DNA from: Halieaceae bacterium | GTDB lineage: Bacteria > Pseudomonadota > Gammaproteobacteria > Pseudomonadales > Halieaceae | Assembly: GCA_902631395.1 (NCBI GenBank) | Contig: CACOYM010000012.1 | Coordinates: 1-64,000 of the forward strand | Direction: 5' to 3' | DNA: 64,000 bases | Shown: piece after piece, positions 1 to 31,006 of the stretch | Layout of the letters: each line of letters opens with the position of its first letter | How positions within the stretch are numbered: position 1 is the first letter of the stretch | Notes under the pieces: generated by a model | The model's database searches: none | Seen by the model: the letters and a program-made list of their open reading frames with translations, nothing else | What the model was told of the DNA's origin: nothing | Program-made: the position numbers and the translations under genes

Positions 1-2
1 AG

Positions 3-2253: not shown

Positions 2254-2288
2254 CGGGTAATTCACAAAAGTTTGGCGCCGAGGCTAAT

Positions 2289-5448
<3,160 letters not shown>

Positions 5449-5449
<1 letters not shown>

Positions 5450-6150
5450 TGGCATCAGCGAGCTATCAAACACGTCGAGATGAGATCGAAACTTATTTCG
5501 ATCGCACCGCTGCCGATGCCTGGGCTGCGCTTACATCAGATGCACCGGTTAGTCGCATCCGGCGCACGGTGCGCCGCGGTCGTGACGCAATGCGCGAGAT
5601 GCTGATTAGCTGGTTGCCTGAGGATCTAACCGGTAGCACTTTAATTGATGCCGGCTGTGGAACCGGCACGCTGGCCATTGAGGCGGCGCAGCGTGGTGCT
5701 GAGGTGGTTGCTGTGGATCTGTCACCCACGCTGGTTAAGTTAGCCAGAGAGAGGTTGCGTGACATAAACCAAACATTGGACGTGACGTTTCTTGTTGGCG
5801 ATATGCGCGAAATGGATTTGGGGTCCTTTGATTACGCGGTTGCCATGGACTCGCTGATTCACTACGACGTCTCCGATGGTGTGCGGACGCTTGAGGCCAT
5901 TGCAGAGCAGATTCACAAGAAGATGGTATTTACCTTCGCGCCGAAGACGCCGCTACTTACGCTAATGCACGCCGCTGGTAAGTTATTCCCGCGGGCCGAT
6001 AGAGCTCCATCGATTGAACCGGTTTCGCCCAGCCGTCTTTTACGGCACGTGCACGAAGCGGATCTGACCCAAGACTGGGTGGCGGGTCGGTCGCATCGTA
6101 TTGATGTTGGGTTTTATAAATCCCACGCTTTGGAGTTGACGCGTCGATGA
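5449..6150 (+). CDS. bchM: Magnesium-protoporphyrin IX O-methyltransferase
   Basis: BchM transfers a methyl group from S-adenosylmethionine to the ring-C propionate of Mg-protoporphyrin IX, giving the monomethyl ester. The 233-residue protein shows the class I methyltransferase motif LIDAGCGTGTLAIEAA (about residues 64-79), AVDLSPTLV as motif II and VGDMREMD downstream, with the BchM-specific N-terminal YFDRTAADAWAALTSDAPVSRIRRTVR region. The start codon overlaps the bchL stop by one base (TGATG). The substrate comes from BchH/BchD/BchI, and bchH lies two genes upstream in the same operon. Confidence 0.96.
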
Positions 6151-7577: not shown

Positions 7578-7601
7578 TCTTCATACTTGGAGGGTTTTGT
7601 A

Positions 7602-8354
7602 ATGAGCGACGTATCATCTTTCTTAGATTTGACCTCAATTTTGTTCACATTATTCTGGTTATTCTTCATTGCATTAGTGCTGTATCTGCATCGTGAAGGT
7701 AAGCGAGAGGGGTGGCCACTTCAGCTGAATAATGGGGAGACTGCGGCTGGATTGGGTGGAATTCCTAAACCCAAGACTTATCGTAAACACCATGGCCAAG
7801 GGGACCGCGTCAGGCCTGGACCTGATGCACCCGAATACCACATCAACGCCGAGCCGCTGTATAACTCTGCGGGCGCACCTCTAAAGCCACTGGGAGACCC
7901 AATGGTGGACGGATTGGGCCCGGCGGCGTGGGCTAAGCGCGCGGACCAGCCAGATTTAACCGTTGATGGGCGGCCCAGGATCGTGCCGCTAAGAATTGAC
8001 CCAGAACATAGTGTTGTGTCTAAAGACCCTAACCCTGTCGGGAAAGCGGTCTATGGATGCGATGGCAAGCAGGGTGGCACCGTTGTGGATATGTGGGTTG
8101 ACCGAGCTGAACCAATGTTTCGCTATGCTGAGTTAGATGTTGCGGGCAAGCGTGTGTTGCTGCCGATGACAATGGCTCGAGTGTCAAAAAGTGGTGAGAT
8201 GAATGTGCGCTCAATCCGCAGTGATCAGTTTCAACAAGTGCCAACATTGGCCAACCCTGATCAAGTCACGCTTCAAGAAGAGGACCGAATAACTGCGTTT
8301 TACGGTGGCGGGACTCTGTACGCTATGCCTAACCGTCAGGAACCTAGTCTATGA
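7602..8354 (+). CDS. puhA: Photosynthetic reaction center subunit H
   Basis: PuhA is the H subunit that caps the cytoplasmic side of the L-M reaction center and guides proton uptake to QB. The 250-residue protein has one N-terminal membrane helix (LTSILFTLFWLFFIALVLYL), the following YLHREGKREGWPL, and a soluble PRC-barrel domain with YHINAEPLYNSAGAPLKPLGDP and the VDMWVDRAEPMFRYAEL strand block. ATG 7602 is chosen because GGAGGG (7589-7594) sits at good distance; an upstream in-frame ATG at 7587 overlaps this site. It is the first gene of puhABC-E and follows lhaA by 24 nt. Confidence 0.97.
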   Translation: MSDVSSFLDLTSILFTLFWLFFIALVLYLHREGKREGWPLQLNNGETAAGLGGIPKPKTYRKHHGQGDRVRPGPDAPEYHINAEPLYNSAGAPLKPLGDPMVDGLGPAAWAKRADQPDLTVDGRPRIVPLRIDPEHSVVSKDPNPVGKAVYGCDGKQGGTVVDMWVDRAEPMFRYAELDVAGKRVLLPMTMARVSKSGEMNVRSIRSDQFQQVPTLANPDQVTLQEEDRITAFYGGGTLYAMPNRQEPSL

Positions 8355-9037
8355 GAGAAGCACCAAAAAAAGAAAAACAGGTGGTGCGTGGGGCGGCACC
8401 ACTTGAGGATGCCAACCTTGCCGAAAGCTTGCCAGAGGATGAATCTCTAATCTGGCAAGGAAGACCAGAACCTAAGGCCATCGCTCTTCGTGCGATGTAC
8501 CTTTGGTACGTTGTGGCATATTTGCTGGTCTTGGTCCTGCTCAGGACTGGCTTCCTAGTAATGAGTGATGCGCCAATGAGTGAGTGGTCGGCGTTGTTGG
8601 CCTGGCAGTTATTAGCCAGCCTGTTTATTGTCGGCATCATATTAGGCTTAGCAGTGCTGTACGGTAGGTCTACCATTTACACCTTGACCAATAGGCGGTT
8701 GATCCTTAGGACCGGCGCAGCAGTCCCAATTCATGTCAACTTCCCACTAGAAAAAATCGCTTCAGCTGATCTTAAAGTTTTCTCGGATGGGACGGGTGAC
8801 ATCGCGTTGAAGCTTGAGAACAGCGATAAGCTTTATTGGTTGCTATTGTGGCCAAATGTAAGATCGTGGTGGGTCCGCCCACTCCAGCCTTTGCTGAGAG
8901 GTCTGCGTGATTTTGAGCTGGCTGCAAGTGCCTTAGCGAGTGCGGCGAGTGCTCAGTCCCCCGTATCTTTTGGTGAATTTAAGAGCGATTATGAGGACGT
9001 TTCGATGGCGGCTACAGCGCTGCCGCGTGCGCAATGA
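8351..9037 (+). CDS. puhB: Photosynthetic complex assembly protein PuhB
   Basis: PuhB is a membrane protein needed for efficient reaction-center assembly in purple bacteria. The 228-residue product begins with a charged tail, then ESLIWQGRPEPKAIALRAMYLWY leading into two to three membrane segments (about residues 48-66 and 80-103). It ends with a PH-like domain (YTLTNRRLILRTGAAVPIHV) typical of the family. The ATGA overlap with puhA and with puhC indicates one operon. No unusual residues were noticed. Confidence 0.9.
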   Translation: MREAPKKEKQVVRGAAPLEDANLAESLPEDESLIWQGRPEPKAIALRAMYLWYVVAYLLVLVLLRTGFLVMSDAPMSEWSALLAWQLLASLFIVGIILGLAVLYGRSTIYTLTNRRLILRTGAAVPIHVNFPLEKIASADLKVFSDGTGDIALKLENSDKLYWLLLWPNVRSWWVRPLQPLLRGLRDFELAASALASAASAQSPVSFGEFKSDYEDVSMAATALPRAQ

Positions 9038-9540
9038 TGGACGCGACTGCGGTGATATCACCGCCTAAATTGCTTCGCCTGATTCATCCGTTGGTGTGGG
9101 TGATGGTTTTGATGTTCGTGGTCTGGGGTGCAGGTGCTTTTCTCACTGATCAGAACAGGGCCGCGTTCCATAGTGCAGGCTCAGATCCGTCTGTTGTTTC
9201 AGAGCGAATTGTTGTTCGAGACTTGCCTAACGGGGCTGTAGGAATTTTCCACGCAGAAAGCGGGACCACGATTGCTCGCTACGAATCTGGGCAAGGTGCT
9301 TTCGTTAGAACAATCTTTAGAAGTTTGGTGCGAGACCGCAGGGTTCGCGGGGTCTCCGCGGCGCCAGTTTTTATTCTTTACACATTGGGTGATGGGGACA
9401 TAACAGTTGAAGATCCCAGCACTAATAGTCGGATTCAGCTAGAGGCCTTTGGTGAACCCAACGCTGAACATTTCCGGCAGATGTTCGATTTAGCAATAAA
9501 TCTATCCTCATTCCCACGTGATCCCACGCTAGGAAAATGA
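9034..9540 (+). CDS. puhC: Photosynthetic complex assembly protein PuhC
   Basis: PuhC is a single-pass membrane protein that influences the reaction center-LH1 core. The 168-residue product has one membrane segment (about residues 18-37, LVWVMVLMFVVWGAGAFLT), then a periplasmic-type domain with VVRDLPNGAVGIFHAESG and a GQGAFVRTIFRSLVRDRR stretch that is typical of the family. It overlaps puhB and puhE by 4 nt each. Identification rests on the conserved RDLPNG...GxGaFvRG-like pattern and on the gene order. Confidence 0.9.
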   Translation: MMDATAVISPPKLLRLIHPLVWVMVLMFVVWGAGAFLTDQNRAAFHSAGSDPSVVSERIVVRDLPNGAVGIFHAESGTTIARYESGQGAFVRTIFRSLVRDRRVRGVSAAPVFILYTLGDGDITVEDPSTNSRIQLEAFGEPNAEHFRQMFDLAINLSSFPRDPTLGK

Positions 9541-10430: not shown

Positions 10431-11219
10431 TCAAGCGCAAATATTGATAGCTCTTTTACAAAGGATCTCTAAAAGATTTAACTGGTAGTCCAGACTAGCC
10501 TCGGGATTTTCAGTCAACATGTTACAAGGAATGTGACTGTGGTCGTATACGTCTGGGTGAAATCTTGAACTCAGCGCTGACCCCAACGCTGGACATAGAA
10601 AAGCTGTCCTATTGGTCCCGACGACAGCAACTCGGCACCTCTTATGAAGCCTGCTTACTAAAACACCTACGATAGCATCAGAGCTAGATGCTCTGGTGTG
10701 CTTCAGATAGCTACCTTTACAAGGAAGCTCGAAGCATATTTTGATTATGAGCTCTCCTTCGCTTAAGCCTCCTTTGGAAAAGTAGTCTTCAGCCATATAG
10801 CTCGTTCTCGTCGTATGGATCGTTGCGTCCAGAGCAAGCAAGGCCGCGTTCCAGTCTGAAGACCGAATTTTAGAAGCTATTGCGCCTCCTATAGTTCCTC
10901 TATTTCTGGTCTGTGAATCACCAATGTTAGCGGCAAGCTCGCTTAAGACAGGCGCTTTTCGGGTAACAACAACTGAACCTGCTATTGCGGCGTGGCTCTC
11001 TCCTGCGCCAATTGATAGGGTCGAGCCCTCGATATAAACGCCACGCAACTGATCTATGGTGGATATATCTATTAAGTCTGAGACGTGTTGTAGCTCATGC
11101 TGAAGGCGCAGAACCAGTTCTTGACCGCCACTAAGGTAGATCGGGTTTTTCGACTCGCGATAGATTGCTTCAGCATCGGTAGTCGTTTTAGGGCTGTGAA
11201 ATAATGAGGAAATGGTCAT
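10431..11219 (-). CDS. FAD-binding (medium) subunit of a xanthine dehydrogenase/CoxM-type molybdenum hydroxylase
   Basis: A 262-residue PCMH-type flavoprotein subunit that would carry electrons from the 2Fe-2S clusters to an acceptor. Recognisable blocks are LSGGQELVLRL near the N-terminus (family AGGxSLL), IGAGESHAAI, the second FAD motif IGDSQTRNRGTIGGAIA and LLALDATI. After GTIGG the usual N..H..P..D pattern is altered (AIASKIRSSDW), so FAD binding may differ. It is slightly shorter than the usual 280-290 residues. ATG 11219 overlaps the stop of the upstream large subunit (ATGA), so they are co-translated. The substrate cannot be told from sequence. Confidence 0.82.
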   Translation of the reverse strand: MTISSLFHSPKTTTDAEAIYRESKNPIYLSGGQELVLRLQHELQHVSDLIDISTIDQLRGVYIEGSTLSIGAGESHAAIAGSVVVTRKAPVLSELAANIGDSQTRNRGTIGGAIASKIRSSDWNAALLALDATIHTTRTSYMAEDYFSKGGLSEGELIIKICFELPCKGSYLKHTRASSSDAIVGVLVSRLHKRCRVAVVGTNRTAFLCPALGSALSSRFHPDVYDHSHIPCNMLTENPEASLDYQLNLLEILCKRAINICA

Positions 11220-14050
11220 GCACTCCCAGCAGATTTTTTTATGCAGCGCCAAACTTTTTCAGGCGTAGCGGGCATTGATAAGCGCTCTCCCAGCGCTGAG
11301 TAAATAGCATTCATAACCGCTGGCGGAGCGGCTATTGCTCCAGACTCTCCGCAACCTTTCACTCCAAGAGGGTTGTGCTCACACAGCGTCTCGGTAAAAG
11401 AAATATCAAATGATGGAAGCATCTCCGCTCTTGGAACCGCATATTTGTTGAAGGAATCGGTTATCAGATCTCCCGAATCGCTATCGTATTTCACATGCTC
11501 CCATAGCGCCTGACCAATACCCTGAGCGATGCCACCATGTAACTGTCCTTCTACGATAGCCTCATTAACCACAGCACCAAAATCGTCGACTGCTGTGTAA
11601 TTAACCACTGCTACTAAGCCAGTATCAGGATCAATCTCTACCTCGCAAATGTGTGTACCGGACGGGTAGGTAAAGTTCTTTGGGTCATAAAACGCTGTAG
11701 CCTCCATCCCGGGTTCCAGGTCCTCCGGATAGTTGTGGGGGGCATACGCGATACGCACTATTTCTTGAATCGTCATTTGACCCTCACCGTCGGCACGTTT
11801 GAATACACCAGACGCAAACTCCACTGCCGATGATTGGCAATTCAAACAATGAGCTGCAATCACTCGCCCCTTTTTGACCAATTTTTTGGCGGCTAGCACA
11901 ACGGCCGAACCACCAACTGAGAGGGATCTTGAGCCATAGGTCCCCATACCCACAGGTGTGCGTCGGGTATCACCGTGTAGGACGCAGATATCCTCTATGG
12001 GTATACCAAGTACACTTCCTGCAACCTGTGCGAAAGTGGTTTCGTGACCTTGTCCTTGAGAATGAGACCCCGTGACAACCTCAAGTTTAGCGGTGGGTAG
12101 AAACCTAACGGTGGCTGACTCCCACAAACCGTAATCAGCGCCCAGAACACCCGCGATAGCGGAGGGCCCTATTGCGCATGCTTCGACATAGTTCGAAATA
12201 CCGATACCACGCTTCTTGCCCTGCTTCAGACTTTCTTGCTGCCTCTCTTTAAATGAAAAATATGCGGCACGCTCAATAGCTTTTTCAAAATGCGCTGGAA
12301 AGTCTCCAGAGTCAAACACGAGTCCTGTCGGTGTCTGATATGGAATTTGCTCCGGTTGAACTAAATTTCGGGCCCTTAACTCACATGGGTCTAGGCCTAG
12401 CTCACCAGCGGCATTATCAATCAAAGTTTCAATAACAAATGTTGCCTCAGGTCTTCCCGCTCCGCGATATGCGTCGACTGGTGAGGTGTTCGTATAAACA
12501 CCGGTCACATCCGCAAACACATTGGATATTGAATATGGCCCTGCAAGCATCATCGCATAGTTATATGTGGGGACAAGTGAACCAAACGGCGAGAGGTACG
12601 CGCCTAAATTAGCTAGCGTATTTACTTTGATTGCGGTTATACATGCATCCTTATCAAGCGCTATAGCCGCTTCCGTGAGGTGATCTCTCCCGTGAATATC
12701 AGCCGCAAAACTTTCTCCTCTAGTTGCGGACCACTTTACAGGTGCTTTTAGTTTTCGCGACGCCCAGAGGCAAAGACACTCCTCTCCATAGACAAAAATT
12801 TTAGAACCGAAGCTTCCTCCAACATCCTTTGAGACGACGTCTATTTCATGCTCTGGCGCTATGCCTACCTCTTCAGCCAGAACTCGTCTCAATATGTGCG
12901 GATTCTGGGTGGTGGCGTATAAAGTGTACCTCCCCGTCGCCTCATCATATTTGCCATTGGCCGCTCGAGTCTCTAGTGGTGCCGCTATTAAACGGTTATT
13001 CACTATCTGCATCGCTGAAACATGCTCTGCACAGCTAAACGCCTGCTCAACTGCTTCCTCGTCGCCTAATTGCCACTTGAAGGCTGTGTTGCTGTCTAGT
13101 GTTTGATGGACAGGTCGAGATTTTAATGCCGAATCTAGATTAGTAACGGCTCTGGATTCTTCGTAGTGGATTTTGATTTTCCGGACGGCTTGCTGTGCAA
13201 CTTTCCGAGAGGTGGCTACGATCATGGCTATCGGCTGTCCAACGTATTTGACCTTAGTGCTGCTTAGGAGCGGTCTACTTTTTGCACGCATAGGCTCCCC
13301 AGAAACATCCATGATTTGCCAGCTACAACTGGGGGGCATGAGCCCATCAGACAAAACGTCTTGTTCGGTAAATACCTCGCTGACTCCATCAAGGTCCTGC
13401 AGAGCTGACAGATCTATCTCGTTTATCTTTCCACACGCCACCTCGGAACGGACGAAGCTTGCATAAAGTTGGCCGGGCAACTCTATATCGTCAGTAAACG
13501 TAGCTTCTCCACACAACAGTCGGGAGTCCTCAACACGACCAGATTGCGTACAAAAACTCTCTGAATCAGGTTTGTCAGAATCCACGTCTTTAGCCGCTAA
13601 ACCAATCGCGCTGACAATGTTATGGTAGCCAGTGCAGCGACATAGATTTCCACGCAACTGTTGACGAATTCGGGCAGGGTTCGGATCCGGGGTTTTGTCC
13701 AAGTATTCAGATGCGTTCAGCAACATGCCTGGAGTACAAAATCCGCACTGCAACGCGTGCTGTGTTGCAAAATGACCTTGCAGAGATCTACGACAATTAG
13801 CTTCGGTTAAACCGTCGACGGTGGTTACAGGCTGACCGTTTACCTGAATCGCCAAAACTGAACAGCTCTTTACTGACTTACCATCCAGCAGCACAGTACA
13901 ACTCCCACACTGCGCGCTGTCACATCCTCTCCTGACACTCTTGATGCCCAAATCATCTCGCAGAACTGTCAATAGTGTGTCGACGTTGCTAACGCTGAGC
14001 TCATGTGCCTTACCGTTAATGACAAGTTTGAGCGGCGACTCCACAGTCAT
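11216..14050 (-). CDS. Fused 2Fe-2S and molybdopterin-binding subunits of a xanthine dehydrogenase/aldehyde oxidase-type enzyme
   Basis: A 944-residue fusion of the small (CoxS-like) and large (CoxL-like) subunits. The plant-type 2Fe-2S ligands are C43, C48, C51 and C63; the second cluster has C102, C105, C137 and C139. A linker near residues 150-170 leads to the molybdopterin domain, with EATFTDDIELPGQLYASFVRS, the cofactor-contact block SHSQGQGHETTFAQVAG, AYRGAGRPEA and the near-C-terminal GVKGCGESGAIAAPPAVMNAI with the expected catalytic Glu. AYRGAGR replaces the AYRCSFR of true CO dehydrogenase, so CO oxidation is unlikely. These enzymes usually hydroxylate aldehydes or N-heterocycles. 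It is in an operon with the FAD subunit and a membrane methyltransferase-like gene, inside a photosynthesis cluster. Confidence 0.9.
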   Translation of the reverse strand: MTVESPLKLVINGKAHELSVSNVDTLLTVLRDDLGIKSVRRGCDSAQCGSCTVLLDGKSVKSCSVLAIQVNGQPVTTVDGLTEANCRRSLQGHFATQHALQCGFCTPGMLLNASEYLDKTPDPNPARIRQQLRGNLCRCTGYHNIVSAIGLAAKDVDSDKPDSESFCTQSGRVEDSRLLCGEATFTDDIELPGQLYASFVRSEVACGKINEIDLSALQDLDGVSEVFTEQDVLSDGLMPPSCSWQIMDVSGEPMRAKSRPLLSSTKVKYVGQPIAMIVATSRKVAQQAVRKIKIHYEESRAVTNLDSALKSRPVHQTLDSNTAFKWQLGDEEAVEQAFSCAEHVSAMQIVNNRLIAAPLETRAANGKYDEATGRYTLYATTQNPHILRRVLAEEVGIAPEHEIDVVSKDVGGSFGSKIFVYGEECLCLWASRKLKAPVKWSATRGESFAADIHGRDHLTEAAIALDKDACITAIKVNTLANLGAYLSPFGSLVPTYNYAMMLAGPYSISNVFADVTGVYTNTSPVDAYRGAGRPEATFVIETLIDNAAGELGLDPCELRARNLVQPEQIPYQTPTGLVFDSGDFPAHFEKAIERAAYFSFKERQQESLKQGKKRGIGISNYVEACAIGPSAIAGVLGADYGLWESATVRFLPTAKLEVVTGSHSQGQGHETTFAQVAGSVLGIPIEDICVLHGDTRRTPVGMGTYGSRSLSVGGSAVVLAAKKLVKKGRVIAAHCLNCQSSAVEFASGVFKRADGEGQMTIQEIVRIAYAPHNYPEDLEPGMEATAFYDPKNFTYPSGTHICEVEIDPDTGLVAVVNYTAVDDFGAVVNEAIVEGQLHGGIAQGIGQALWEHVKYDSDSGDLITDSFNKYAVPRAEMLPSFDISFTETLCEHNPLGVKGCGESGAIAAPPAVMNAIYSALGERLSMPATPEKVWRCIKKSAGSA

Positions 14051-14056
14051 GCTAGT

Positions 14057-14665
14057 TCACGCTTTTCTCAAGCGGAGTAAAATAACTAACCCAGTAAAGG
14101 TGGGGATGAGCTGAGGAACTTTAGCCCGATACTCGACGTACGCCTGTCCGAATCTTTGCTGAAGCTCAAGCTCCTCGAGGGCTGCTATGAAACAAAAACC
14201 GAGTATGGCGGCCGAGCCCAGCAAGTAGGTCCCCAAGAAGTTACAAACGAGGCACCACCCGATAATACCGACGATTACTAAGGTATACCTTGGGTGGCGC
14301 ACGACCGTATAAGGACCTTCCGTTATGAGGCATTCCGAATTATTTCTTATCTCCGGAACCCCGGCGAAAGTACTGAGGCTCAAATGCGCTCGAACAGATT
14401 TTGAGAGCCAGATTGAGATGGCGTATATCAAAACCCCCGGAATTACAGTCAACCAGCTGAAGCCCAAATCAGGCCCCAGCAGGGTCTCACGCCAATGCCA
14501 TGCAACCCATGCGGCGATTGCCATAGTGATCGCCGCGGCACTGTAAGCGGGTATCACGCCTGCCTTGCGCCAAAACTTAAGACATCCATGAATCGTGATC
14601 CAGAAGGCCATAACTGCTGGAAGCACCAGTGTCACAAAAGTTGCGAGAATGAGACGGATATCCAT
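14057..14665 (-). CDS. Isoprenylcysteine methyltransferase-like (ICMT/PEMT fold) membrane protein
   Basis: A 202-residue protein with about five membrane segments. Its second half carries the ICMT-type signature: GPYTVVRHPRYTLVIVG, then an E-E-L-E-L-Q-QRFGQAYVEYRAKVPQLIP segment. Members transfer a methyl group from S-adenosylmethionine to carboxylate or amine groups of lipophilic substrates, but many bacterial ones are uncharacterised. GGAGG lies just upstream of ATG 14665. The stop is 6 nt from the start of the fused molybdenum hydroxylase gene, so it is the first gene of that operon. A lipophilic substrate shared with the hydroxylase is only a guess. Confidence 0.75.
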   Translation of the reverse strand: MDIRLILATFVTLVLPAVMAFWITIHGCLKFWRKAGVIPAYSAAAITMAIAAWVAWHWRETLLGPDLGFSWLTVIPGVLIYAISIWLSKSVRAHLSLSTFAGVPEIRNNSECLITEGPYTVVRHPRYTLVIVGIIGWCLVCNFLGTYLLGSAAILGFCFIAALEELELQQRFGQAYVEYRAKVPQLIPTFTGLVILLRLRKA

Positions 14666-14757
14666 TATTAACCTCCGGATGTTCGTTTTTATGGGCCGGT
14701 GGTTTTTCGGTGAAGATCAAGTTACCTTCAAGTTTCATGGTATCACGTTGCGATCAC

Positions 14758-15111
14758 ATGGCAGACATCAAGGTAAAAGACTTCATATTTGGTATGCCCA
14801 CAAGATTTGCCGCCGAAAAAGCGATTGGGCTAGAGGCGACTATCCAGTTCTTGATTAGTGGGCAGGATGGCGGCAACTTTGTGTTGCACATCAACAAAGG
14901 CACATGCACTGCCAATGAGGGGTTGGAAGAGTCACCAACGCTGACATTGAAAATGTCCAGTGAGACGTATATCGGTATGGCAATCGGACAGTTAAAGGGG
15001 CCTCAGGCGTTTTTTATGAGGAAGTTACGGTTCGACGGTGAAACAAAGCTGTTAATGAAAATGCACTCGCTTTTCCCTTCTGTCCACGAGAGCGATCTCG
15101 CGCAGCTTTGA
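14758..15111 (+). CDS. SCP2 sterol-binding domain protein
   Basis: A 117-residue single-domain protein with the SCP2 pattern: ATIQFLISGQDGGNFVLHINKGTCTANEG, then SPTLTLKMSSETYIGMAIGQLKGPQAFFMRKLRFDGETKLLMKM. SCP2 domains form a hydrophobic tunnel that binds lipids or acyl-CoA. ATG 14758 (MADIKVKDF) is preferred over the earlier start at 14710 because the domain begins there; no clear ribosome site is seen. It points away from the molybdenum hydroxylase operon, sharing a short divergent intergenic region. A link to carotenoid, quinone or lipid handling is possible but unproven. Confidence 0.75.
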   Translation: MADIKVKDFIFGMPTRFAAEKAIGLEATIQFLISGQDGGNFVLHINKGTCTANEGLEESPTLTLKMSSETYIGMAIGQLKGPQAFFMRKLRFDGETKLLMKMHSLFPSVHESDLAQL

Positions 15112-21812: not shown

Positions 21813-23269
21813 TGTTGGTTCTTGACCACGATCGCGCTGGCGGGTACTGGGGCTCAGTGTACATGTTCACAGCCGTGAAAGGGCTACAAGTCATCATAGA
21901 CGGGCCTGTAGGTTGCGAGAATCTGCCTGTGACGTCGGTGCTGCACTATACCGACGGACTTCCTCCCCATGAGTTACCGATCGTCGTAACAGGACTGGCA
22001 GAGGAGGAGCTCGGACAACGTGGGACTGAGGGTGCACTGAGACGCGCCCACACGACGCTTGACCCCAAAAAACCCAGCGTAGTTGTTACTGGATCGATTG
22101 CAGAAATGATTGGCGGTGGCGTTACACCTGAGGACACCAATATTCAGCGTTTCTTGCCGCGCACTATTGATGAGGACCAATGGCAAAGTGCGGACCGGGC
22201 TCTGGTTTGGCTGTGGGATCAATTTGGTAAGGCTAAGGCCAAGAAGAGGCGCAAGGCGAAGAAGGTTGATGACGGCATCAAGCGGGTGAATCTCATAGGC
22301 CCCGCTTACGGTTATTTCAATACTCCTTCTGACCTCGCTGAACTCCAGCGCTTGGTTGAGGGTATTGGCGCCGAAATTAATATGATTTTTCCGCTCGGTT
22401 GCCCACTGGAAGACATAGTGTCGTTGGCCGACGCCGATGCAAATGTATGTATGTATCGCGAGTACGGCCGTAAACTTTGTGAAATTTTAGACAAGCCTTA
22501 TTTTCAGGCGCCAATTGGCCTAGATAGCACCACGAAATTTCTGCGAGCTTTGGGCGAAGAGCTTGACCTAGATCCAGAGCCCTTCATTGAGAAAGAAAAG
22601 CACACCACGCTGAAGCCAGTGTGGGATCTTTGGCGTTCCGTAACGCAGGACTTCTTTGGAACTGCGAGCTTTGGCGTGGTTGCCACAGAGACCTATACGA
22701 GAGGTTTACGTCACTTTCTTGAGGGCGAGCTCGGCCTACCTTGCGCTTTCCACTTCGAACGCAAAGCTGGCGTTAAACCAGACAACCAGAAGGTACGCGA
22801 CGCGGTTTATAAATCTGGAGCGCTTTTGGTATTCGGCGGTTACAACGAACGCATGTACGTAAATGAGGCGGGCAATAAAAGTATGTACATCCCTGCTTCG
22901 CTTCCGGGCACCATAATCCGGCGGCATACCGGCACTCCGTTTATGGGATATGCGGGTACTTGCTACATCGTGCAGGAAGTCTGTAACGCTCTGTTTGATG
23001 CCCTATTCAATATCTTGCCGTTGGGCACTGATCTCGACAAAGTTGAGGCGACCCCCGCCCGAGCTGCAGAAACCCTCTCCTGGGCCGATACCGCACAAAA
23101 CGGTCTAGACAGTATTGTTGCATCACAGCCGATTCTTGTTCGGATCTCTGCAGCCAAGAGGCTGAGGGACGCAGCAGAACAAATCGCGAGGTCTGCAGGG
23201 GTTGCCACAGTAGAAATTGAGCATGTTCAAAACGCGAGCGAAAGTTTGCAATTTGGAGATGCAGCATGA
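21812..23269 (+). CDS. bchZ: Chlorophyllide reductase subunit Z
   Basis: BchZ is the partner of BchY in chlorophyllide a reductase. The 485-residue product has [51 protein letters not shown], ending with a region resembling the BchB C-terminus. A Lys-rich insert ([12 protein letters not shown], about residues 144-155) interrupts an otherwise conserved stretch. ATG 21812 shares its first base with the bchY stop (TAATG), and GGGGGAA lies about 8 nt upstream. The end overlaps the next small gene by ATGA. Confidence 0.95.
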
Positions 23270-23523
23270 ACGTTCCCGTACCGCATAAAATAGAAGAGGC
23301 TAGTGTAATGAAACCACAAGTTCTCAACCGACCTATCGATCGCCGCAAAAAATTCGATCAAATTCAATTCAAGTTTGTGTTCATCGTGATTTTTGCTTGG
23401 TTTCTCTTCGCGGAGACGATGAAGACCGTAAGTTTGTCACGAGACAACACAGAGAGGAATTGGTGGAAAGAGGCGCTGACACAAACGAATAGTGTTGTGC
23501 CGTATCTCTTCATGAGGGTGTAA
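23266..23523 (+). CDS. pufQ: Small single-pass membrane protein, PufQ-like
   Basis: An 85-residue protein with a basic N-terminal tail ([16 protein letters not shown]), one membrane helix ([16 protein letters not shown], about residues 37-53) and a C-terminal tail [21 protein letters not shown]. PufQ proteins of purple bacteria have the same layout and a similar tail (W..EA....P.(I/L)F.), and sit between bchZ and the puf structural genes as this gene does. PufQ affects bacteriochlorophyll supply to the puf complexes. Overall identity to known PufQ looks low, so the symbol is tentative. Start overlaps bchZ by ATGA; an internal ATG at 23308 is a second option. Confidence 0.6.
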
Positions 23524-23612: not shown

Positions 23613-24437
23613 ATGTCGATGCTGAGTTTCGAAAAAAAGTATCGCGTCAAGGGAGGCACGCTCATTGGAGGTGATCTGCTCGATTTTTGGGTAGGACCCT
23701 TCTATGTTGGCTTTTTTGGTGTGACAACTGCAGTGTGCGCGATTTTGGGTACCGCACTAATTCTTTACGGTGCAGCCCAGGGTGACACTTGGAATGTGTG
23801 GAGAATCAGTATCGAGCCACCCCCGCTGAGTTACGGCCTGAGCCTCGCACCCATGAACGAGGGTGGACTATGGCAAATGATCACCATATTCGCATGCGGT
23901 GCCTTTGGGTCATGGATGCTGCGTCAAGTTGAAATATCTCGGAAGTTAGGAATGGGGCTTCACGTTCCTTTCGCTTTTGGATTCGCAATATTCGCGTACG
24001 TTTCACTGGTGGTCATAAGACCTTGGCTACTAGGAGCGTGGGGGCATGGTTTTCCCTACGGCATTATGAGCCACCTTAATTGGGTAAGCTATATCGGCTA
24101 CCAATACGCGGCTTTTCACTACAACCCCGCTCATATGATCGCGGTGACGTTCTTCTTCACAACCTGCCTGGCATTAGCGATGCACGGATCGCTGATTTTA
24201 ATGGCTACAGATCCAAAGCGCGGCGAGCACGTGAAAACGGGTGAGCATGAGAATACGTTCTTCCGAGACAACATTGGTTACTCCATTGGCGCGCTGGGCA
24301 TTCACAGGCTTGGCATGTTCACTGCCATATCGGCTGCTTTCTGGAGTGCCATCTGTATGTTGATCAGCGGGCCGTTATGGAGTGAGTCGTGGCCCTCTTG
24401 GTGGAACTGGTGGCTCGAGCTGCCAATTTGGAGCTAA
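23613..24437 (+). CDS. pufL: Photosynthetic reaction center subunit L
   Basis: PufL is one of the two core reaction-center proteins binding the special pair, accessory bacteriochlorophylls, bacteriopheophytin and quinones. The 274-residue protein has five membrane helices, N-terminal [34 protein letters not shown], helix [27 protein letters not shown] and LAMHG with quinone/iron-site histidines, and ends [15 protein letters not shown] 23613 has GGGAGAG upstream; ATG 23619 is the alternative. Unusually, no pufB-pufA lie before it. Confidence 0.98.
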
Positions 24438-24451
24438 AGGAGACCTTTGAA

Positions 24452-25369
24452 ATGAGAGAGAACTTAAATATTTTTACAAAAGTTCAGGTAGCGGCTCCTG
24501 ACTATCCCGGCGTACCGATCGGCGACGCACAACATAACCGCGTTGGTGGTATCTATCACAGCACATTCATGGGTAGATTTGGCGACGCACAAATTGGACC
24601 CATTTATTTAGGTGCTACTGGCATCGCCTCAATCATCTCCTTTTTTGTTGCCTTTTTTATCATGGGAATGAATATGGCAGCGTCTGTGGATTGGAGCCCG
24701 ATTGAGTTTATGAAGAATTTCTTCTGGCTTACTCTTGATCCGCCACCAGCCAAATATGGGCTTAGTTTCCCTCCCCTGTGGGATGGCGGCTGGTTTCTCA
24801 TCGCTGGCTTCTTCCTGACTGCGTCCGTAATGCTGTGGTGGTGGCGCACCTTCAAGATCTCCCAGAATCTAGGCATGAGTAACTACCTTGCTTGGGCGTT
24901 TGGATCCGCAATCTGGCTGTTTTTAGTACTGGGCTTCTTACGTCCTATCCTAATGGGCTCCTGGTCAGAGGCTGTGCCATACGGGATTTTTTCTCACTTG
25001 GACTGGACTCAAAACTTCTCGCTCCGGTACGGGAATCTTTTTTACAACCCGTTCCATATGCTGTCGATTGCCTTCCTTTACGGATCAGCAGTTCTGTTCG
25101 CGATGCACGGTGCGACGATTCTCGCGACTTCTCGATATGGGGCAGATAGAGAAATTGATCAAATTACTGATCGAGGCACAGCAGCGGAGAGAGGTGCATT
25201 GTTCTGGAGATGGTGCATGGGTTTCAACGCTTCAATTGAATCAATACACAGATGGGCTTGGTGGTTTGCAGTACTCACGGTCATCACCGGAGGAATCGGA
25301 ATATTGTTAACAGGGACCGCAGTCGACAACTGGTACTTGTGGGCTTTGGAGCGAGGCATGGTCCCGTAA
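24452..25369 (+). CDS. pufM: Photosynthetic reaction center subunit M
   Basis: PufM pairs with PufL in the reaction-center core. The 305-residue protein begins at ATG 24452 after a strong AAAGGAGA site (24436-24443). Five membrane helices are seen with [61 protein letters not shown] and the helix E iron-site region [15 protein letters not shown]. It ends at the normal M length without the extra C-terminus that contacts a cytochrome subunit in some groups. No pufC follows. Confidence 0.98.
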
Positions 25370-25661
25370 GCAATAAATTATTAGCGGGGTGTTTCTCTTC
25401 GGCTGCATTTCGACTAGTGAGAACCCCACCACCATAAACGAATTTAAAGAGCTTTGAGGATGAAATATAAAACGGGCCATACAGAAGCCTTATCAAACCT
25501 CGCTAGGGCAGGTAGGAATTTGTGAGCATTGATAGTGCTCGCAAATGGGGACGAGTCGGCAACGATACACGCTGCACTCGTCATGTAAGAGTGTCGCTTC
25601 GGCAGTCCAATTGGACTCCATCGCCGACACACGATTACCTATTGCAATAGGAGGAAACTAT
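25370..25661 (+). promoter_or_regulatory. Structured pufM-pufB intercistronic region (four hairpins)
   Basis: This 292-bp spacer has no gene but several inverted repeats: GGGGT..TTCTC/GAGAACCCC (25386-25427, with a bulge); an 11-bp stem ATTTGTGAGCA/TGCTCGCAAAT with one G-U pair (25518-25546); GACGAGT/ACTCGTC (25550-25582); and GTGTCG/CGACAC (25591-25630) enclosing the perfect palindrome AGTCCAATTGGACT (25604-25617). Such structures in puf mRNAs are known to block exonucleases and set the antenna to reaction-center ratio. No T-run follows any stem, so they look like processing/stability elements rather than terminators. Confidence 0.6.
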
Positions 25662-25787
25662 ATGAGTAGTCTAAGCGAAAGTGAGGCTAAGGAATTCCAT
25701 TCAGCTTACATCATGGGATTCACGGGCTTCACTATTGTAGCCATAGTCGCACATTGGTTGCTCTACATGTGGAAACCCTGGTTCTAA
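25662..25787 (+). CDS. pufB: Light-harvesting 1 beta polypeptide
   Basis: A 41-residue antenna peptide. N-terminal SLSESEAKEFHSAYIMGFTGFT, then a single membrane helix with the bacteriochlorophyll-ligating His in IVAIVAHWLLYMWKPWF; both the EAxEFH motif and AHWL..W.PW are hallmarks of LH1 beta chains. AGGAGG (25649-25654) lies 7 nt before ATG 25662. It follows pufM after the structured spacer instead of preceding pufL. Confidence 0.96.
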   Translation: MSSLSESEAKEFHSAYIMGFTGFTIVAIVAHWLLYMWKPWF

Positions 25788-25809
25788 GGAGCCAGGAAAT
25801 CTGATAACG

Positions 25810-25828
25810 CGTGAGGGTGGTTCTCACG
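25810..25828 (+). other. Hairpin between pufB and pufA
   Basis: CGTGAG/CTCACG with a 7-nt loop (GGTGGTT) lies in the 65-bp pufB-pufA spacer, followed by an A-run. A role in mRNA processing or stability is likely; termination is not, since no T-run follows. Confidence 0.5.
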
Positions 25829-25852
25829 TAAAAAAATTGATGGAGTAAAAGT

Positions 25853-26047
25853 ATGCACAGACTATGGATGATGTTTGACCCGCGCCAAGTGATGGTAGCA
25901 ATTTCTGCTTTCCTATTCACTTTGGCGCTGATGATCCATTTCATTCTGTTGAGCACCGAGCGCTACGACTGGCTTGGTGATCCAAACGCTGGCGGCATGG
26001 CCGCAGTCAGCGCTCAACAGGAAGCAGCTCCTAACATTAGAAGCTGA
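25853..26047 (+). CDS. pufA: Light-harvesting 1 alpha polypeptide
   Basis: A 64-residue antenna peptide. N-terminal [22 protein letters not shown] and the ligand His in [16 protein letters not shown] are typical of LH1 alpha chains. A C-terminal tail rich in Ala/Gln/Glu ([15 protein letters not shown]) may be trimmed. TGGAG lies upstream of ATG 25853. It is the last gene of the puf operon, followed 7 nt later by a terminator-like hairpin. Confidence 0.96.
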
Positions 26048-26054
26048 GAAGTGG

Positions 26055-26074
26055 GGGGCTTTATAAAAAGCCCC
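26055..26074 (+). terminator. Terminator-like hairpin after pufA
   Basis: GGGGCTTT/AAAGCCCC, an 8-bp perfect stem with loop ATAA, seven bases after the pufA stop. The following AAATTGTTT is only moderately T-rich, so it may act as an mRNA 3' end protector as well as a terminator. Confidence 0.75.
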
Positions 26075-26243
26075 AAATTGTTTCGACCCGTGGCGAGGCC
26101 ATCTGTGCTTAGCCAGTTACGGAGCAAGCCAAGAAGTTGCGATCACCCTGCCCCCAGAGCTGTCGATCGCTGGAGACTTTGATGCTTTTGCTGCGCAACC
26201 TCTCTTCTAGAGAACGGGTCATTTACCTTTACCAAGAATTCAC

Positions 26244-26849
26244 ATGTTGGAATTAAGGCAGGAAGCACAAGTCGTATCGTTTGATAATGAACGTATTATC
26301 GCAGTGGAGCCCGACGACCGGATAGTTGGTTATCCCCGTAAACTAGAGGCGCATCTAGGCGACGGCACCCTGCATCGCGCCTTCTCCATATTTCTTTTCA
26401 ACGAAAGTCAACAGGTACTGCTTCAAAAGCGCAGCCAGAGTAAGTTTTTGTGGCCTGGATTTTGGTCGAATACATGCTGCAGTCACCCCAGAAAAGGCGA
26501 GAGCTTAGAGCAAGCGGCTCACCGTAGAATCAGAGAAGAGATGCGGTGCGCGGCGAGTCTCCACTTCGTATATCGGTTTACCTATCATGCCACATACCTA
26601 GATGTTGGCTCTGAGCACGAAATTTGCTCTGTCTACGTGGGAAAGGCCCGAGGTACGGTAACCCCCAATCGAGAGGAAATTGACGCGCACCAGTGGATAG
26701 AGTTCGAGGACTTGGATGAGTGGGTAAACGCTTCGCCAGAGGCATTCACCCCGTGGTTTAAGATGGAGTGGAACAAACTGCGTGGCAGCTCAATCTCAAC
26801 AGAACTCTCTGTCTTGGGCCGGGCTAGTCCTGCTAGGATGAGTGATTAG
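26244..26849 (+). CDS. idi: Isopentenyl-diphosphate delta-isomerase, type 1
   Basis: Idi interconverts isopentenyl and dimethylallyl diphosphate, supplying CrtE and the bacteriochlorophyll tail. The 201-residue Nudix-fold protein has the type 1 active-site Cys in WSNTCCSHP, a Nudix-like region GESLEQAAHRRIREEM, and the second catalytic block EHEICSVYVGKA with the expected Glu residues. It is about the usual length. The last 4 bases overlap the convergent HemN-like gene. Presence of idi inside the photosynthesis cluster is a feature also met in other phototrophic proteobacteria. Confidence 0.93.
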   Translation: MLELRQEAQVVSFDNERIIAVEPDDRIVGYPRKLEAHLGDGTLHRAFSIFLFNESQQVLLQKRSQSKFLWPGFWSNTCCSHPRKGESLEQAAHRRIREEMRCAASLHFVYRFTYHATYLDVGSEHEICSVYVGKARGTVTPNREEIDAHQWIEFEDLDEWVNASPEAFTPWFKMEWNKLRGSSISTELSVLGRASPARMSD

Positions 26850-28159
26850 ATGCACCGGTAAGCGGGCGACGAGTCCGACAAGTGCACGGGCAGCCACTCC
26901 TGCCCCAAAGACGTGATCCTCAATCGCTGATCGGTATGTTCAAGCACGCCGAGATCAATGAGGGGCCTAAGACGCTTTTCCATGGCAGCGTTACCGGCAG
27001 GGACTTCCTGATTACACAACAGTTGCCTTAGCAGGTAACGCAACCCGACATCGTTGTTCGAATCTAAGAGTCCTAGCCTCGGCCGAAGTTCAGACGCTTT
27101 CGCATCTTCATGCCAATCCTCTAGCTGCTGGGCATTTTCGATGAACATCCCCGGCAGTTCGCTTATTGCCCCCAATCCGACTCCGAAAATCCAGGTTTGG
27201 GGATGCTTATGGAAACCATACGTGCTTATAGATACGTTCTCTGCCTCGCAAGAGACCGCCAACTCATGCGCCGGGTGTGCAAACGTGCTCAAGCCCAGAG
27301 CCGTATATCCGGAGCTTTGCAACGACTCTGCTAGTTGGTTGTACAGAGCAAGCTTCTCGGCCAATGACGGCAACTTCCTTTCCGGTAATGCGGCTTGGTG
27401 CGGAAATCTTTTTTCGCGCTTCACAAACGGATAACACTCGATCCAATCGACACCTAATGAGACAAGCAGATCGAGGCTGGAGGCAAGCGTATCTGGCGTT
27501 TGGCCCGGCATACCGAATAATTGGTCAGTGCCTACTGACTGAAACTCTAGCTCACGAGCCAGCTTTATTACGTCCTCAAGCATTTCAGCCGATTGGTAAC
27601 GACCGATCTCGTTCTGCACGGTCGGGTCCATATCCCTGACCTGTAATTTTAGTTCCTTTACCCCCAAACCTTTCAGAAACGTTAGCTGCGAGCGTGACGC
27701 TCTTCTCGGATCAAGTTCAAAACTAAACTCTGTTTGAGGCGTAACTTCGAAATTTTCAGCAATTGCTGAGAATATTTGCCCAAGCAACAAATCCGACAAG
27801 CAGTTAGCCGACGCGCCAATGATCTGCAGATTACACAACTCCCTCTTCCCGCCGACGAGCTTAGCAGTTGACTGAAGTTCGTCTATGACAGCGGCCGCAT
27901 ACTGCTCCTGCATTTTGCTGTTGGCCAGTGCGACAGCGATTACGCCGCAGGTAAGGTCGAGCGCTGGACACAAAGGCAAAGAGACGACTAGAGACACGCG
28001 TTCGTTTGGTTTACTACGCACAGTGGCGTAGGCGCGGTTTTGAAGCTCGGTAGAAATAATGGTGTGTGTGCGTCCGATAGAGAAGTTACTTAACTGCTCC
28101 ACCGTGGTCTCAGAACCGGACTTACAACTGCCGTGAGCATTCGTATTAGCCACTTGCAT
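26846..28159 (-). CDS. HemN-family protein with incomplete radical-SAM signature
   Basis: The 437-residue protein aligns by eye with oxygen-independent coproporphyrinogen III oxidase along most of its length: FELDPR, QLTFLKGLGVKELKLQVRDMDPTVQ, DQLFGMPGQT, YTALGLSTFAHPAHELAV, FGVGLGAISELPG and the HemN C-terminal domain. But the cluster motif C-x3-C-x2-C-x-C reads C64-x3-D68-x2-C71-x-V73, so the middle cluster Cys is Asp, and the GGGTP SAM-contact motif is GASAN (115-119). The frame is intact and has a GGGGGG ribosome site, so it is not a dead gene. Either Asp serves as a ligand or the protein has another role, for example heme or tetrapyrrole binding. Genuine HemN activity is doubtful. Confidence 0.8.
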   Translation of the reverse strand: MQVANTNAHGSCKSGSETTVEQLSNFSIGRTHTIISTELQNRAYATVRSKPNERVSLVVSLPLCPALDLTCGVIAVALANSKMQEQYAAAVIDELQSTAKLVGGKRELCNLQIIGASANCLSDLLLGQIFSAIAENFEVTPQTEFSFELDPRRASRSQLTFLKGLGVKELKLQVRDMDPTVQNEIGRYQSAEMLEDVIKLARELEFQSVGTDQLFGMPGQTPDTLASSLDLLVSLGVDWIECYPFVKREKRFPHQAALPERKLPSLAEKLALYNQLAESLQSSGYTALGLSTFAHPAHELAVSCEAENVSISTYGFHKHPQTWIFGVGLGAISELPGMFIENAQQLEDWHEDAKASELRPRLGLLDSNNDVGLRYLLRQLLCNQEVPAGNAAMEKRLRPLIDLGVLEHTDQRLRITSLGQEWLPVHLSDSSPAYRCI

Positions 28160-28419: not shown

Positions 28420-29460
28420 CTAGTCGCGATGGCCGGCCTGAGCGCGGCCCGCCATCTCATCGCGTTCTTTCATCACCATGAATAGCTCAAGCATCCAAGA
28501 CGCCCTAGCGGAAAAGTTCCGCGGTTGATTTGGATTCCTCCACTCTTCCGTTTTGGGCACAGCGTCGAGCAAGAACTGGTTCTCTGTAGCGCAGGGCTCC
28601 AGCATGCATTCCGGTGCCGCACCGGGCCCACGGATTAAACCGAGAAGGATCCCAAGCTTTCGTGGTAGCGATACGATCGCGCGTTGATGAATCGACTCGT
28701 AACCGTTAAGTGCAACAGTGTGCCCGATCTCGGCATAAAGGCGACGTGCAGCGAGAATGCCTGGCCTGCAACCGCGAGGCAGTTGGCGGATGCCCTCGTC
28801 GGCCAATTCATAGCGTCGCTCGGCTTCTACAAGAATTTGTTGTATTACCTGTGTAAGTTGTGCGCTAGGCGCGGGATTGCATAGGAACCTATCAGGGTCG
28901 ATACCGGCCTCATGGAGGAGGTCATGCGGCAGATATAGCCGCCCGGCGCGGGCATCCTCACCCACGTCCCGGCAGATATTAGTCAGTTGCATGGCCACGC
29001 CTAAATCGGCTGCGCGCGCTAGCGTCGAATGATCTTTAACTCCCATTAGAATCGCCATCATGACGCCAACGGTGCCAGCGACACGGGCGCCGTAGTCACA
29101 GACTTCCGCCAGCGTGTGGTAAACCCGTCCGTCGGTGTCCCACTCAAATCCCTCAAGCAGGGCATCGAGCAGGCCCCTCGGTAATTTGTGGTCGATTACG
29201 ATCTGACTCAGCACCCGATCGATCGGGTAATTTTCAGGTCGGCCATCGTAGATGAAATCGAGTCGCCGATGAAGTGACGTCAGAGCCCGGCGAGGGTCAT
29301 CGCCAAGATCCACTAAATCGTCAGCGATACGGCAGAACGCATAGAGCCCGGATGCCGACTCTCGGACTCCTTGTGGTAAGAAATGAGAGGCGATATAAAA
29401 AGATTTGGAGCCATGGGACAGCAACCGACGACACTCGCTCATGTCGGTATGAGGCGTCAT
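28420..29460 (-). CDS. crtB: Phytoene synthase
   Basis: CrtB condenses two geranylgeranyl diphosphates to phytoene. The 346-residue protein has the two Asp-rich motifs in YAFCRIADDLVDLGDD and LTNICRDVGEDARAGRLYLPHDLL, and the ARVAGTVGVMM block. ATG 29460 (MTPHTDMSECRRLL) is preferred because it matches the family N-terminus; a GTG at 29481 would overlap the crtI stop by 8 nt. The gene lies 13 nt after crtI on the minus strand, the usual crtI-crtB order. Confidence 0.95.
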   Translation of the reverse strand: MTPHTDMSECRRLLSHGSKSFYIASHFLPQGVRESASGLYAFCRIADDLVDLGDDPRRALTSLHRRLDFIYDGRPENYPIDRVLSQIVIDHKLPRGLLDALLEGFEWDTDGRVYHTLAEVCDYGARVAGTVGVMMAILMGVKDHSTLARAADLGVAMQLTNICRDVGEDARAGRLYLPHDLLHEAGIDPDRFLCNPAPSAQLTQVIQQILVEAERRYELADEGIRQLPRGCRPGILAARRLYAEIGHTVALNGYESIHQRAIVSLPRKLGILLGLIRGPGAAPECMLEPCATENQFLLDAVPKTEEWRNPNQPRNFSARASWMLELFMVMKERDEMAGRAQAGHRD

Positions 29461-29473
29461 GATCTGGTGGTCG

Positions 29474-31006
29474 TTACGCACGTTGGGTCGCGGCTGCAGG
29501 GATCAATTGGTCGATCACTTTGGCGGAAGAGATCACTGCGGGCATGCCGGCACCGGGGTGGGTGCCCGCGCCGACGAGGTACAAGCCTTTTATATCCTCA
29601 CTGCGGTTGTGCGGCCTGAACCAAGCACTTTGTGTAATCCGGGGCTCATAGCCAAAGGCGGCCCCCTTGACTGAGTTCAGCCGGTCGTGGAAATCCTGTG
29701 GGGTCAGGAGTCTGGATGTGACGATGCGCTCGCGCAGGCCGGGGAGCATGGTCTCTTCCAATCGTTGGCACATCCGCTCTCTGAACGTCTCGGCATAGGT
29801 GAGCCAATCCACATTTGCGTCTAGGTGTGGCACCGGCGCCAACGCATAAAACGTGTCGCAGCCCTCAGGCGCAAGCGAGGGGTCTGTCTCTGTGGGTCTG
29901 TGCAGGTAGAGGCTAAAGTCATCGGCCAGCACTTTGCGCTTAAAGATGTCGTCTAGGAGACCTTTATAGCGCGGCCCGAGAATGACGGAGTGGTGAGGGA
30001 CATCGTGGTACTGTCCTTTTGTGCCGAAGTACCAGACGAACAATCCGTTTGAAAAATGTGACCGGTCGATTTTGCGATCCGTCCATCTTTTGCGATGCAT
30101 CGGCTTGATCAGGTGTCGGTAGGTCCACGCCGCATCTGCGTTGGAGACCACGATATCGCCGTGCAGTGTTCGGCCATCTGCCAGTTTTACGCCTCGCACC
30201 TTTCCTTTGTTCACCAGAATCTCTTGTACTTCAGCATTGCACTCGATCTTGCCGCCTTGGCTTTCGATCAGTCCGGCCATGCCTTTGACGATGCTACCGG
30301 TGCCGCCCATCGCGGACCACACTCCGAAACGCTGTTCTAAAAACGAGATTAGCGTGTAAACACTGGTGACCGAGAAGGGGTTGCCACCGATTAATAGTGG
30401 GTGAAAGCTCATCGTCATACGAAGCTGTGGGTCACGTATGTAGCGCGAAACTAGTTTGAATACGCTCCGGTCAGCCCGCAGTCGGATTAGCTGCGGCATA
30501 AACTTGAACAGCGCTAGCAATGAGTCAAAAGGTTTGTCGACCAGCCCCTCAAACCCGACCTTGTAGCGATCCTCACTGGCCTTCAGGTAGCGCTCGTAGC
30601 CTGCGACATCGTCAGCGTTGTAGCTTTTTATTTGTTCAATGTTCCGATCCTTGTCGCCGGAGTAATCGAAGACACGTCCATCGTCAAAGCGAATTCGGAA
30701 AAACGGATCCATGGGTCGCAAGTCAATATCATCAGCGAAGGTTTTGCCGCAAAGTTTCCAAAGTTCCTCTAAAAGGAAGGGTGCCGTGACAATCGTGGGG
30801 CCCGCGTCGAAGGTGAAGCCGTCTTGTTGATAGACATAGGCCCGGCCGCCCGGTGCATCGAGCTTTTCCAGCATATGAACCCGATAGCCCTTGGTGCCCA
30901 AGCGAATGGCTGCGGCTAGGCCACCAAAGCCCGTGCCGATTACCAAAGCCGTGGGACGAGTATCCTGCCTTTCGAGTGCCCGGAATGCCGATTCCGCAAT
31001 ATTCAT
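29474..31006 (-). CDS. crtI: Phytoene desaturase
   Basis: CrtI carries out the successive desaturations of phytoene to neurosporene/lycopene, using FAD. The 510-residue protein has the dinucleotide site VIGTGFGGLAAAIRLGTKGYRVHMLEK near the N-terminus, DAPGGRAYVYQQDGFTFDAGPTIVT, and the C-terminal FAD-contact region GLYLVGAGTHPGAGMPAV. Without crtA in the window and with crtC, crtD and crtF present, lycopene to spirilloxanthin is the likely route. The PpsR-type operator lies about 20 bp upstream of the ATG. Confidence 0.96.
   Translation of the reverse strand: MNIAESAFRALERQDTRPTALVIGTGFGGLAAAIRLGTKGYRVHMLEKLDAPGGRAYVYQQDGFTFDAGPTIVTAPFLLEELWKLCGKTFADDIDLRPMDPFFRIRFDDGRVFDYSGDKDRNIEQIKSYNADDVAGYERYLKASEDRYKVGFEGLVDKPFDSLLALFKFMPQLIRLRADRSVFKLVSRYIRDPQLRMTMSFHPLLIGGNPFSVTSVYTLISFLEQRFGVWSAMGGTGSIVKGMAGLIESQGGKIECNAEVQEILVNKGKVRGVKLADGRTLHGDIVVSNADAAWTYRHLIKPMHRKRWTDRKIDRSHFSNGLFVWYFGTKGQYHDVPHHSVILGPRYKGLLDDIFKRKVLADDFSLYLHRPTETDPSLAPEGCDTFYALAPVPHLDANVDWLTYAETFRERMCQRLEETMLPGLRERIVTSRLLTPQDFHDRLNSVKGAAFGYEPRITQSAWFRPHNRSEDIKGLYLVGAGTHPGAGMPAVISSAKVIDQLIPAAATQRA

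Follow-up and report, generated by a model that had tools for sequence, protein, structure and literature searches.

What does a HemN-like protein do in a photosynthesis gene cluster when the middle Cys of its putative [4Fe-4S] cluster motif has become an Asp? The question is raised by a gene in the window, the whole stretch of 64,000 nucleotides analysed here, which covers a large part of the photosynthesis gene cluster in a single genome (G000; assembly of 2.3 Mb, 88.8% complete). An earlier note on this DNA had offered two answers, an Asp-ligated cluster or a new non-radical role. Our reading, to which we give a probability of about 0.6, is that the gene specifies a HemN-like protein of the Halieaceae photosynthesis gene cluster in a pseudo-radical-SAM form, which has no [4Fe-4S] cluster and is retained as a non-radical protein.

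The window gene and its product

The gene (26846..28159, minus strand) is a single, intact open reading frame (28159..26846) of 437 amino acids with an ATG start, and a Shine-Dalgarno-like G-rich run (AGGGGGG, read by eye) lies immediately 5' of the ATG, in agreement with the intact frame and ribosome site of the earlier note. As also described there, it is located between idi and crtB in the photosynthesis cluster. The gene idi (isopentenyl-diphosphate isomerase, 26244..26849, plus strand; TIGR02150 151 bits, cut-off 105.8), the constant neighbour of the family, is convergent with it, and the end of idi (26849) overlaps the stop of the window gene by 4 bases. On the other side lies crtB (phytoene synthase, 28420..29481, minus strand), whose best NCBIfam match is NF045921 (368.5 bits, below the cut-off of 500). 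The reaction-centre genes pufL and pufM occupy 23613..25369 (plus strand; PF00124), and the interval from pufM to idi (25370..26243, plus strand) contains pufB (25545-25787; NF040862 67 bits, cut-off 61) and no pufC; PF02276 had no match in the genome of the window. Ten window ORFs were checked with NCBIfam, and pufL/M and pufC with Pfam; the names bch, puh, lhaA, pufQ and crtI were assigned from sequence and transferred by BLAST.

Two further places in the cluster were recorded. An 85-aa ORF between bchZ and pufL (23266-23523) stands in the place of pufQ, a name that is a guess for this ORF; NCBIfam gave no match to it, and pufQ is reported absent from the NOR5/OM60 clade in the excerpts of PMC3176799 and PMC12654162. 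Between puhE and crtC (10431-15111) there are four ORFs, one of them of 944 aa and molybdenum-hydroxylase-like by eye, in a slot that in some related genomes is occupied by a relative of the window gene with the complete three-Cys motif (the C form).

The solved structure nearest in sequence to the window protein is that of E. coli HemN (1OLT, E 4e-37), which is also the best Foldseek match of the predicted model (E 5e-33, TM 0.81; mean pLDDT 82). The HemN fold is therefore kept, as had been claimed, but the C-terminal domain, said to be retained as well, is recognised weakly (HemN_C 18.2 bits, below the cut-off of 24). By its fold and its Pfam Radical_SAM score (29.8 bits, barely above the cut-off of 29.5) the protein is a member of the radical SAM superfamily. 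It lacks the three-Cys site for a SAM-binding [4Fe-4S] cluster: direct reading of the motif gives LCPALDLTC, that is C64-x3-D68-x2-C71-x-V (codons for C64-PAL-D68-LT-C71 at 27947..27970, minus strand), with the Asp in the middle position that the earlier note had reported. In the phmmer alignment to 1OLT, along which residue numbers were counted by hand, Cys62, Cys66, Cys69 and Cys71 of the E. coli protein correspond to Cys64, Asp68, Cys71 and Val73, and Tyr56 and His58 to Val58 and Ser60. The loss of GGGTP had also been recognised correctly, but its replacement had been given as GASAN; G111-G-G-T-P115 of E. coli HemN aligns one residue away, with IGASA (114-118; codons at 27806..27820, minus strand), so that Gly111 and Gly113 become Ile114 and Ala116. 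The five rows with the same cluster motif, which we call the D clade, read IGASA or FGASA/FGAAA/FGDSA in this SAM loop. Glu145, Arg184 and Asp209 of E. coli HemN have roles in SAM binding, and the residues at these positions are retained in the D clade. The structure models give low confidence to the cluster loop whichever form, Asp or C, is modelled, and so do not speak for or against a cluster.

A photosynthesis-cluster family apart from HemN and HemW

Of 140 genomes searched in the bacterial family, 106 gave matches, canonical HemN and HemW included; most genomes in the comparison are incomplete environmental assemblies, in which apparent gene absences can be gaps. Searching the genome contigs with the single window protein found no relative, and searching them with the alignment as query found 39 loci. 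The fetched loci yielded 65 cluster-linked rows, of which 64 are distinct: 54 are C-x3-C-x2-C, five C-x3-D-x2-C (G000, G094, G095:C8, G066 and G099:C198), two T-x3-D-x2-C (G065 and G007), one S-x3-C-x2-G (G062) and one C-x3-G-x2-S (G097), and one (G103) is without the motif part, which leaves 63 readable. In a tree of 73 rows the family forms a clade separate from canonical HemN (support 99/97). Most of the loci viewed have the order puhE-gene-idi, which is also seen on the D-form contigs in G066 and G099; in some the gene lies between puhE and crtC, and in the window, G094 and G095 it lies between idi and crtB. An order-wide scan found the reaction-centre family in 12 of 390 genomes, five of them outside the family of the window. 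Three of these five were examined for the gene (G307 and G415, with one match each, were left out): C-form genes occur together with pufC in G249 and G298, with the order puhE-gene-idi in G249, which belongs to another family of the order, and G272 has pufC and a HemW-like match only. A hemN downstream of the puh genes is described for the NOR5/OM60 clade in the excerpt of PMC3176799, and is very likely the same gene. Among the matches listed in the open-licence literature, neither titles nor abstract starts mention an Asp form of HemN or a link between hemN and pufC.

The residues that define HemN are missing from the whole family. None of C-x3-C-x2-C-x-C, NFQGY and [VI]QDF occurs in any of the 64 rows, and all three are present in 12 of 12 canonical HemN compared (NFQGY, and HNxxYW below, cannot be judged in the three short rows G071, G106 and G107, nor the cluster motif in G103). 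Rows with a letter at the fourth-Cys position never have Cys there. This fourth Cys acts in catalysis in HemN according to the excerpt of PMC10964404, which also names Tyr56, His58, Gly111 and Gly113 as catalytic; the positions of Tyr56 and His58 are variable even among C forms, and all four are altered in the D clade. With the fourth Cys (C-x-C) and VQDF missing from every row, the family does not match HemN or HemW. Canonical HemN was rejected for the window protein, which scores 186 bits with TIGR00538 (cut-off 325) and is devoid of the motifs. HemW was rejected as well: HNxxYW, given as its heme motif in the excerpt of PMC11834973, is in 0 of 64 family rows (three too short) and is present in a separate HemW-like protein of the same genome (L002). 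PsgB (TIGR04419) reached 23.4 bits against a cut-off of 300.

Within the genus, TIGR00538 is above its cut-off in one of 57 genomes (G102) and 54 of the 57 have HemF, the genome of the window among them, so coproporphyrinogen oxidation in this genome does not depend on the window protein. Judged by its residues, the C-form parent family is not a coproporphyrinogen dehydrogenase and probably binds a [4Fe-4S] cluster and SAM. This HemN-like gene should not be annotated as coproporphyrinogen dehydrogenase from sequence alone.

Repeated loss of the cluster Cys and selection on the Asp form

Four further contigs from Halieaceae of the Luminiphilus type have the C-x3-D-x2-C motif, in proteins 46-80% identical to that of the window, which rules out a single mutant allele or an assembly error, and the five rows form one clade (support 100/100). 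The fixed, cluster-linked subfamily foreseen by the earlier note thus exists; three-Cys relatives, which if universal would have pointed to a single allele, make up 54 of the 63 readable rows.

The cluster Cys was lost more than once. Grouping all Cys-less rows in one clade is rejected (p-AU 5.9e-48), and so are a clade of the D rows with G065 and G007 (1.9e-5) and one of G065 with G007 (9e-4). G007 clusters with the C forms G012/G013 (support 98/93) and has PSR ahead of its Asp (PSRD versus PALD). The position of G065 in the gene tree is unsure because of long branches: it has Ala66, Leu67 and Asp68 in common with the D clade, and the gene's own tree does not reject D+G065 (p-AU 0.079), but the core photosynthesis genes place it far from the D clade (p-AU 4e-68, in a quick tree in which the G095 row is mosaic). 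From the tree tests and the PSR of G007 it follows that Asp arose at least twice. In another lineage, that of G062 (L057) and G097 (L051), the cluster Cys was lost in two ways, with pufC kept and no Asp gained. In G007 (L132, 13039-15441), the T-x3-D-x2-C gene is followed by an ORF that is acsF-like by eye, and idi is elsewhere, near pufM.

Ligation of clusters by Asp is known from BchNB and from a ferredoxin, and the D clade could likewise still bind a [4Fe-4S] cluster via Cys64, Asp68 and Cys71, as an active radical SAM enzyme with altered redox properties. All five D-clade rows have Cys64, Asp68 and Cys71, with the residues at Glu145, Arg184 and Asp209 likewise retained; the presence of Cys64, Cys71 and these three residues also weighs against a cluster-less protein. 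Nevertheless, none of the four positions named catalytic in the excerpt of PMC10964404 keeps its residue in the D clade, and G065 and G007 acquired Asp with Thr replacing the first Cys, which leaves at most two of the usual cluster ligands. Since Asp is found in these two lineages without the first Cys, its main role is unlikely to be that of a cluster ligand. An active, Asp-ligated enzyme is therefore improbable in our view, and of the two roles offered by the earlier note the non-radical one fits better, because the D clade has lost the Tyr56, His58, Gly111 and Gly113 residues and two lineages have T-x3-D-x2-C.

The losses could also mark a gene on its way out, Cys loss being the first sign of relaxed selection. 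Fast stems would agree with such a remnant: relative to the core photosynthesis genes, the distance ratio is 10-11 for the D clade against C forms and 19-24 for G065 (G007, with 2.6-3.1, and G062/G097, with 5.5-6.4, are not clearly fast). So would the several different Cys losses across the family and an omega (NG86) somewhat above that of most C-form pairs, namely 0.11, 0.15, 0.14 and 0.16 in four D-clade pairs against 0.04-0.12 in the eight C-form pairs with measurable dS (dS was saturated in 6 of 18 pairs, G062-G097 included); nine other genes compared between G000 and G094 gave 0.03-0.09, with bchO saturated. An omega of 0.11-0.16 is however that of a clade under strong purifying selection, slightly weaker than in most comparisons, and not of a decaying gene. 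Within the D clade the rate is back inside the range of the family (G000-G094 ratio 5.5; C-form pairs 2.6-8.4), Asp68 and Cys71 do not vary in the D clade, G065 or G007, and the reading frames of the five D-clade rows, G065, G007, G062 and G097 are intact. We consider a vanishing remnant improbable, and the relaxed selection that the earlier note had named as evidence against its proposal is not supported.

The changes in the D clade are concentrated. Of 38 columns at least 95% conserved among the 54 C forms, the D rows retain 27-30, G065 32, G007 33, G062 26 and G097 28. Six of the columns conserved in C forms are altered in all five D rows (67, 68, 114, 116, 118 and 247), and five of these six (67, 68, 114, 116 and 118) belong to the cluster loop and the SAM loop. 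On a single fast branch of the window's lineage, one cluster Cys would have given way, along with the glycines of the SAM loop and the Tyr and His that are catalytic in HemN, and the resulting non-radical protein would have persisted afterwards under purifying selection. Absence of the cluster is what the motif suggests, and the Asp form may keep only a binding, assembly or regulatory role in tetrapyrrole or reaction-centre assembly.

The Asp form, pufC and known systems

Among the 140 genomes, 53 have reaction-centre genes and 47 have pufC. The motif is readable in 51 of the 53 (G082 had no match, G103 a partial one), and pufC is absent from seven of the 53. In G000, G094, G095, G065 and G007, pufM and idi are on one contig with no pufC between them, and all five carry an Asp form. 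G071 and G108, also without pufC, have C forms, but their puf genes stop at the contig edge, so that the absence is uninformative. Among the 44 pufC-positive genomes with a reaction centre and a readable motif, 42 are C-x3-C-x2-C. Weighing against a link are the two exceptions (G062 and G097), in which Cys was lost with pufC present, G095, which carries both the Asp form and a C form, and the pufC-positive G099 bin, which has a C-form cluster plus a 3.2 kb contig, probably a stray, with a D form, a second puhE and idi. On the core-gene tree, pufC must have been lost three times. The independent pairs, three in number, agree in direction (p 0.25) but are too few for significance, for which a sign test would need at least six; the association was moreover noticed post hoc, after the data had been seen. 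Perhaps the Asp switch is tied to PufC loss. The accompanying absence of pufC, together with descent from a photosynthesis-cluster family wholly without HemN-defining residues, goes beyond what the earlier note had described.

Linkage instead of function could explain the association, in a manner compatible with a cluster-less protein, if the stretch pufLM-idi-gene was inherited or transferred as one cassette; one event could then carry pufC-less puf genes and the Asp form together. The contig G095:C8 (L033) is a mosaic of this kind: positions 1-9440 match G110, of the C type, at 91% identity; the section carrying pufLM, idi and the Asp form shows 82-86% identity to the overlapping parts of D-type contigs; and the remainder is once more nearer the C type. 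From these alternating stretches, pieces of the photosynthesis cluster seem to have been exchanged between relatives. The Ala66, Leu67 and Asp68 shared by G065 and the D clade, with the D+G065 grouping at p-AU 0.079, also agree with a cassette. Against it, G007 groups with G012/G013, has PSRD and not PALD, and carries the gene apart from its puf genes, and the core photosynthesis genes separate G065 from the D clade. Linkage is a serious candidate, with a chance somewhat short of even. G095:C8 also begins with a C-form copy riddled with frameshifts, which overlaps the copy on G095:C20 (L036) with 93% identity.

As a functional explanation, the parent C form, mostly located between puhE and idi, would bind [4Fe-4S] and SAM and serve as a radical SAM factor for tetrapyrrole or reaction-centre maturation, with its radical function required chiefly by organisms that make the tetraheme subunit PufC. 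Loss of PufC would then lead to the same Cys-to-Asp switch, and leave a non-radical assembly or tetrapyrrole-binding factor. We hold this maturation scheme as a tentative and, on present evidence, rather doubtful proposal. If the cluster-less reading of the Asp form is true, conversion of a radical SAM protein into a conserved protein without a cluster would have happened repeatedly within a photosynthesis operon, and genomes with and without PufC would provide a natural experiment on the role of 'hemN' in these marine gammaproteobacterial phototrophs.

Compared with known systems, the window protein resembles HemN (TIGR00538, 1OLT) in overall fold, barrel, the residues at Glu145, Arg184 and Asp209, and its best NCBIfam match, but differs in its score below the cut-off, in the three missing motifs and in the four changed catalytic positions. 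By tree and synteny, the window gene is a member of the group of the NOR5/OM60 hemN, whose slot downstream of the puh genes is described in the excerpt of PMC3176799, but it has Asp at the middle Cys and a changed SAM loop, and in the window, G094 and G095 it has moved to the idi-crtB position. With HemW the family shares a HemN-like fold and the missing fourth Cys, but not HNxxYW. PsgB is, by its name, a HemN-related, non-iron pseudo-SAM protein without a cluster. To our knowledge it has no link with photosynthesis, and the window protein falls far below its model's cut-off, but it offers a precedent for a cluster-less relative of HemN.
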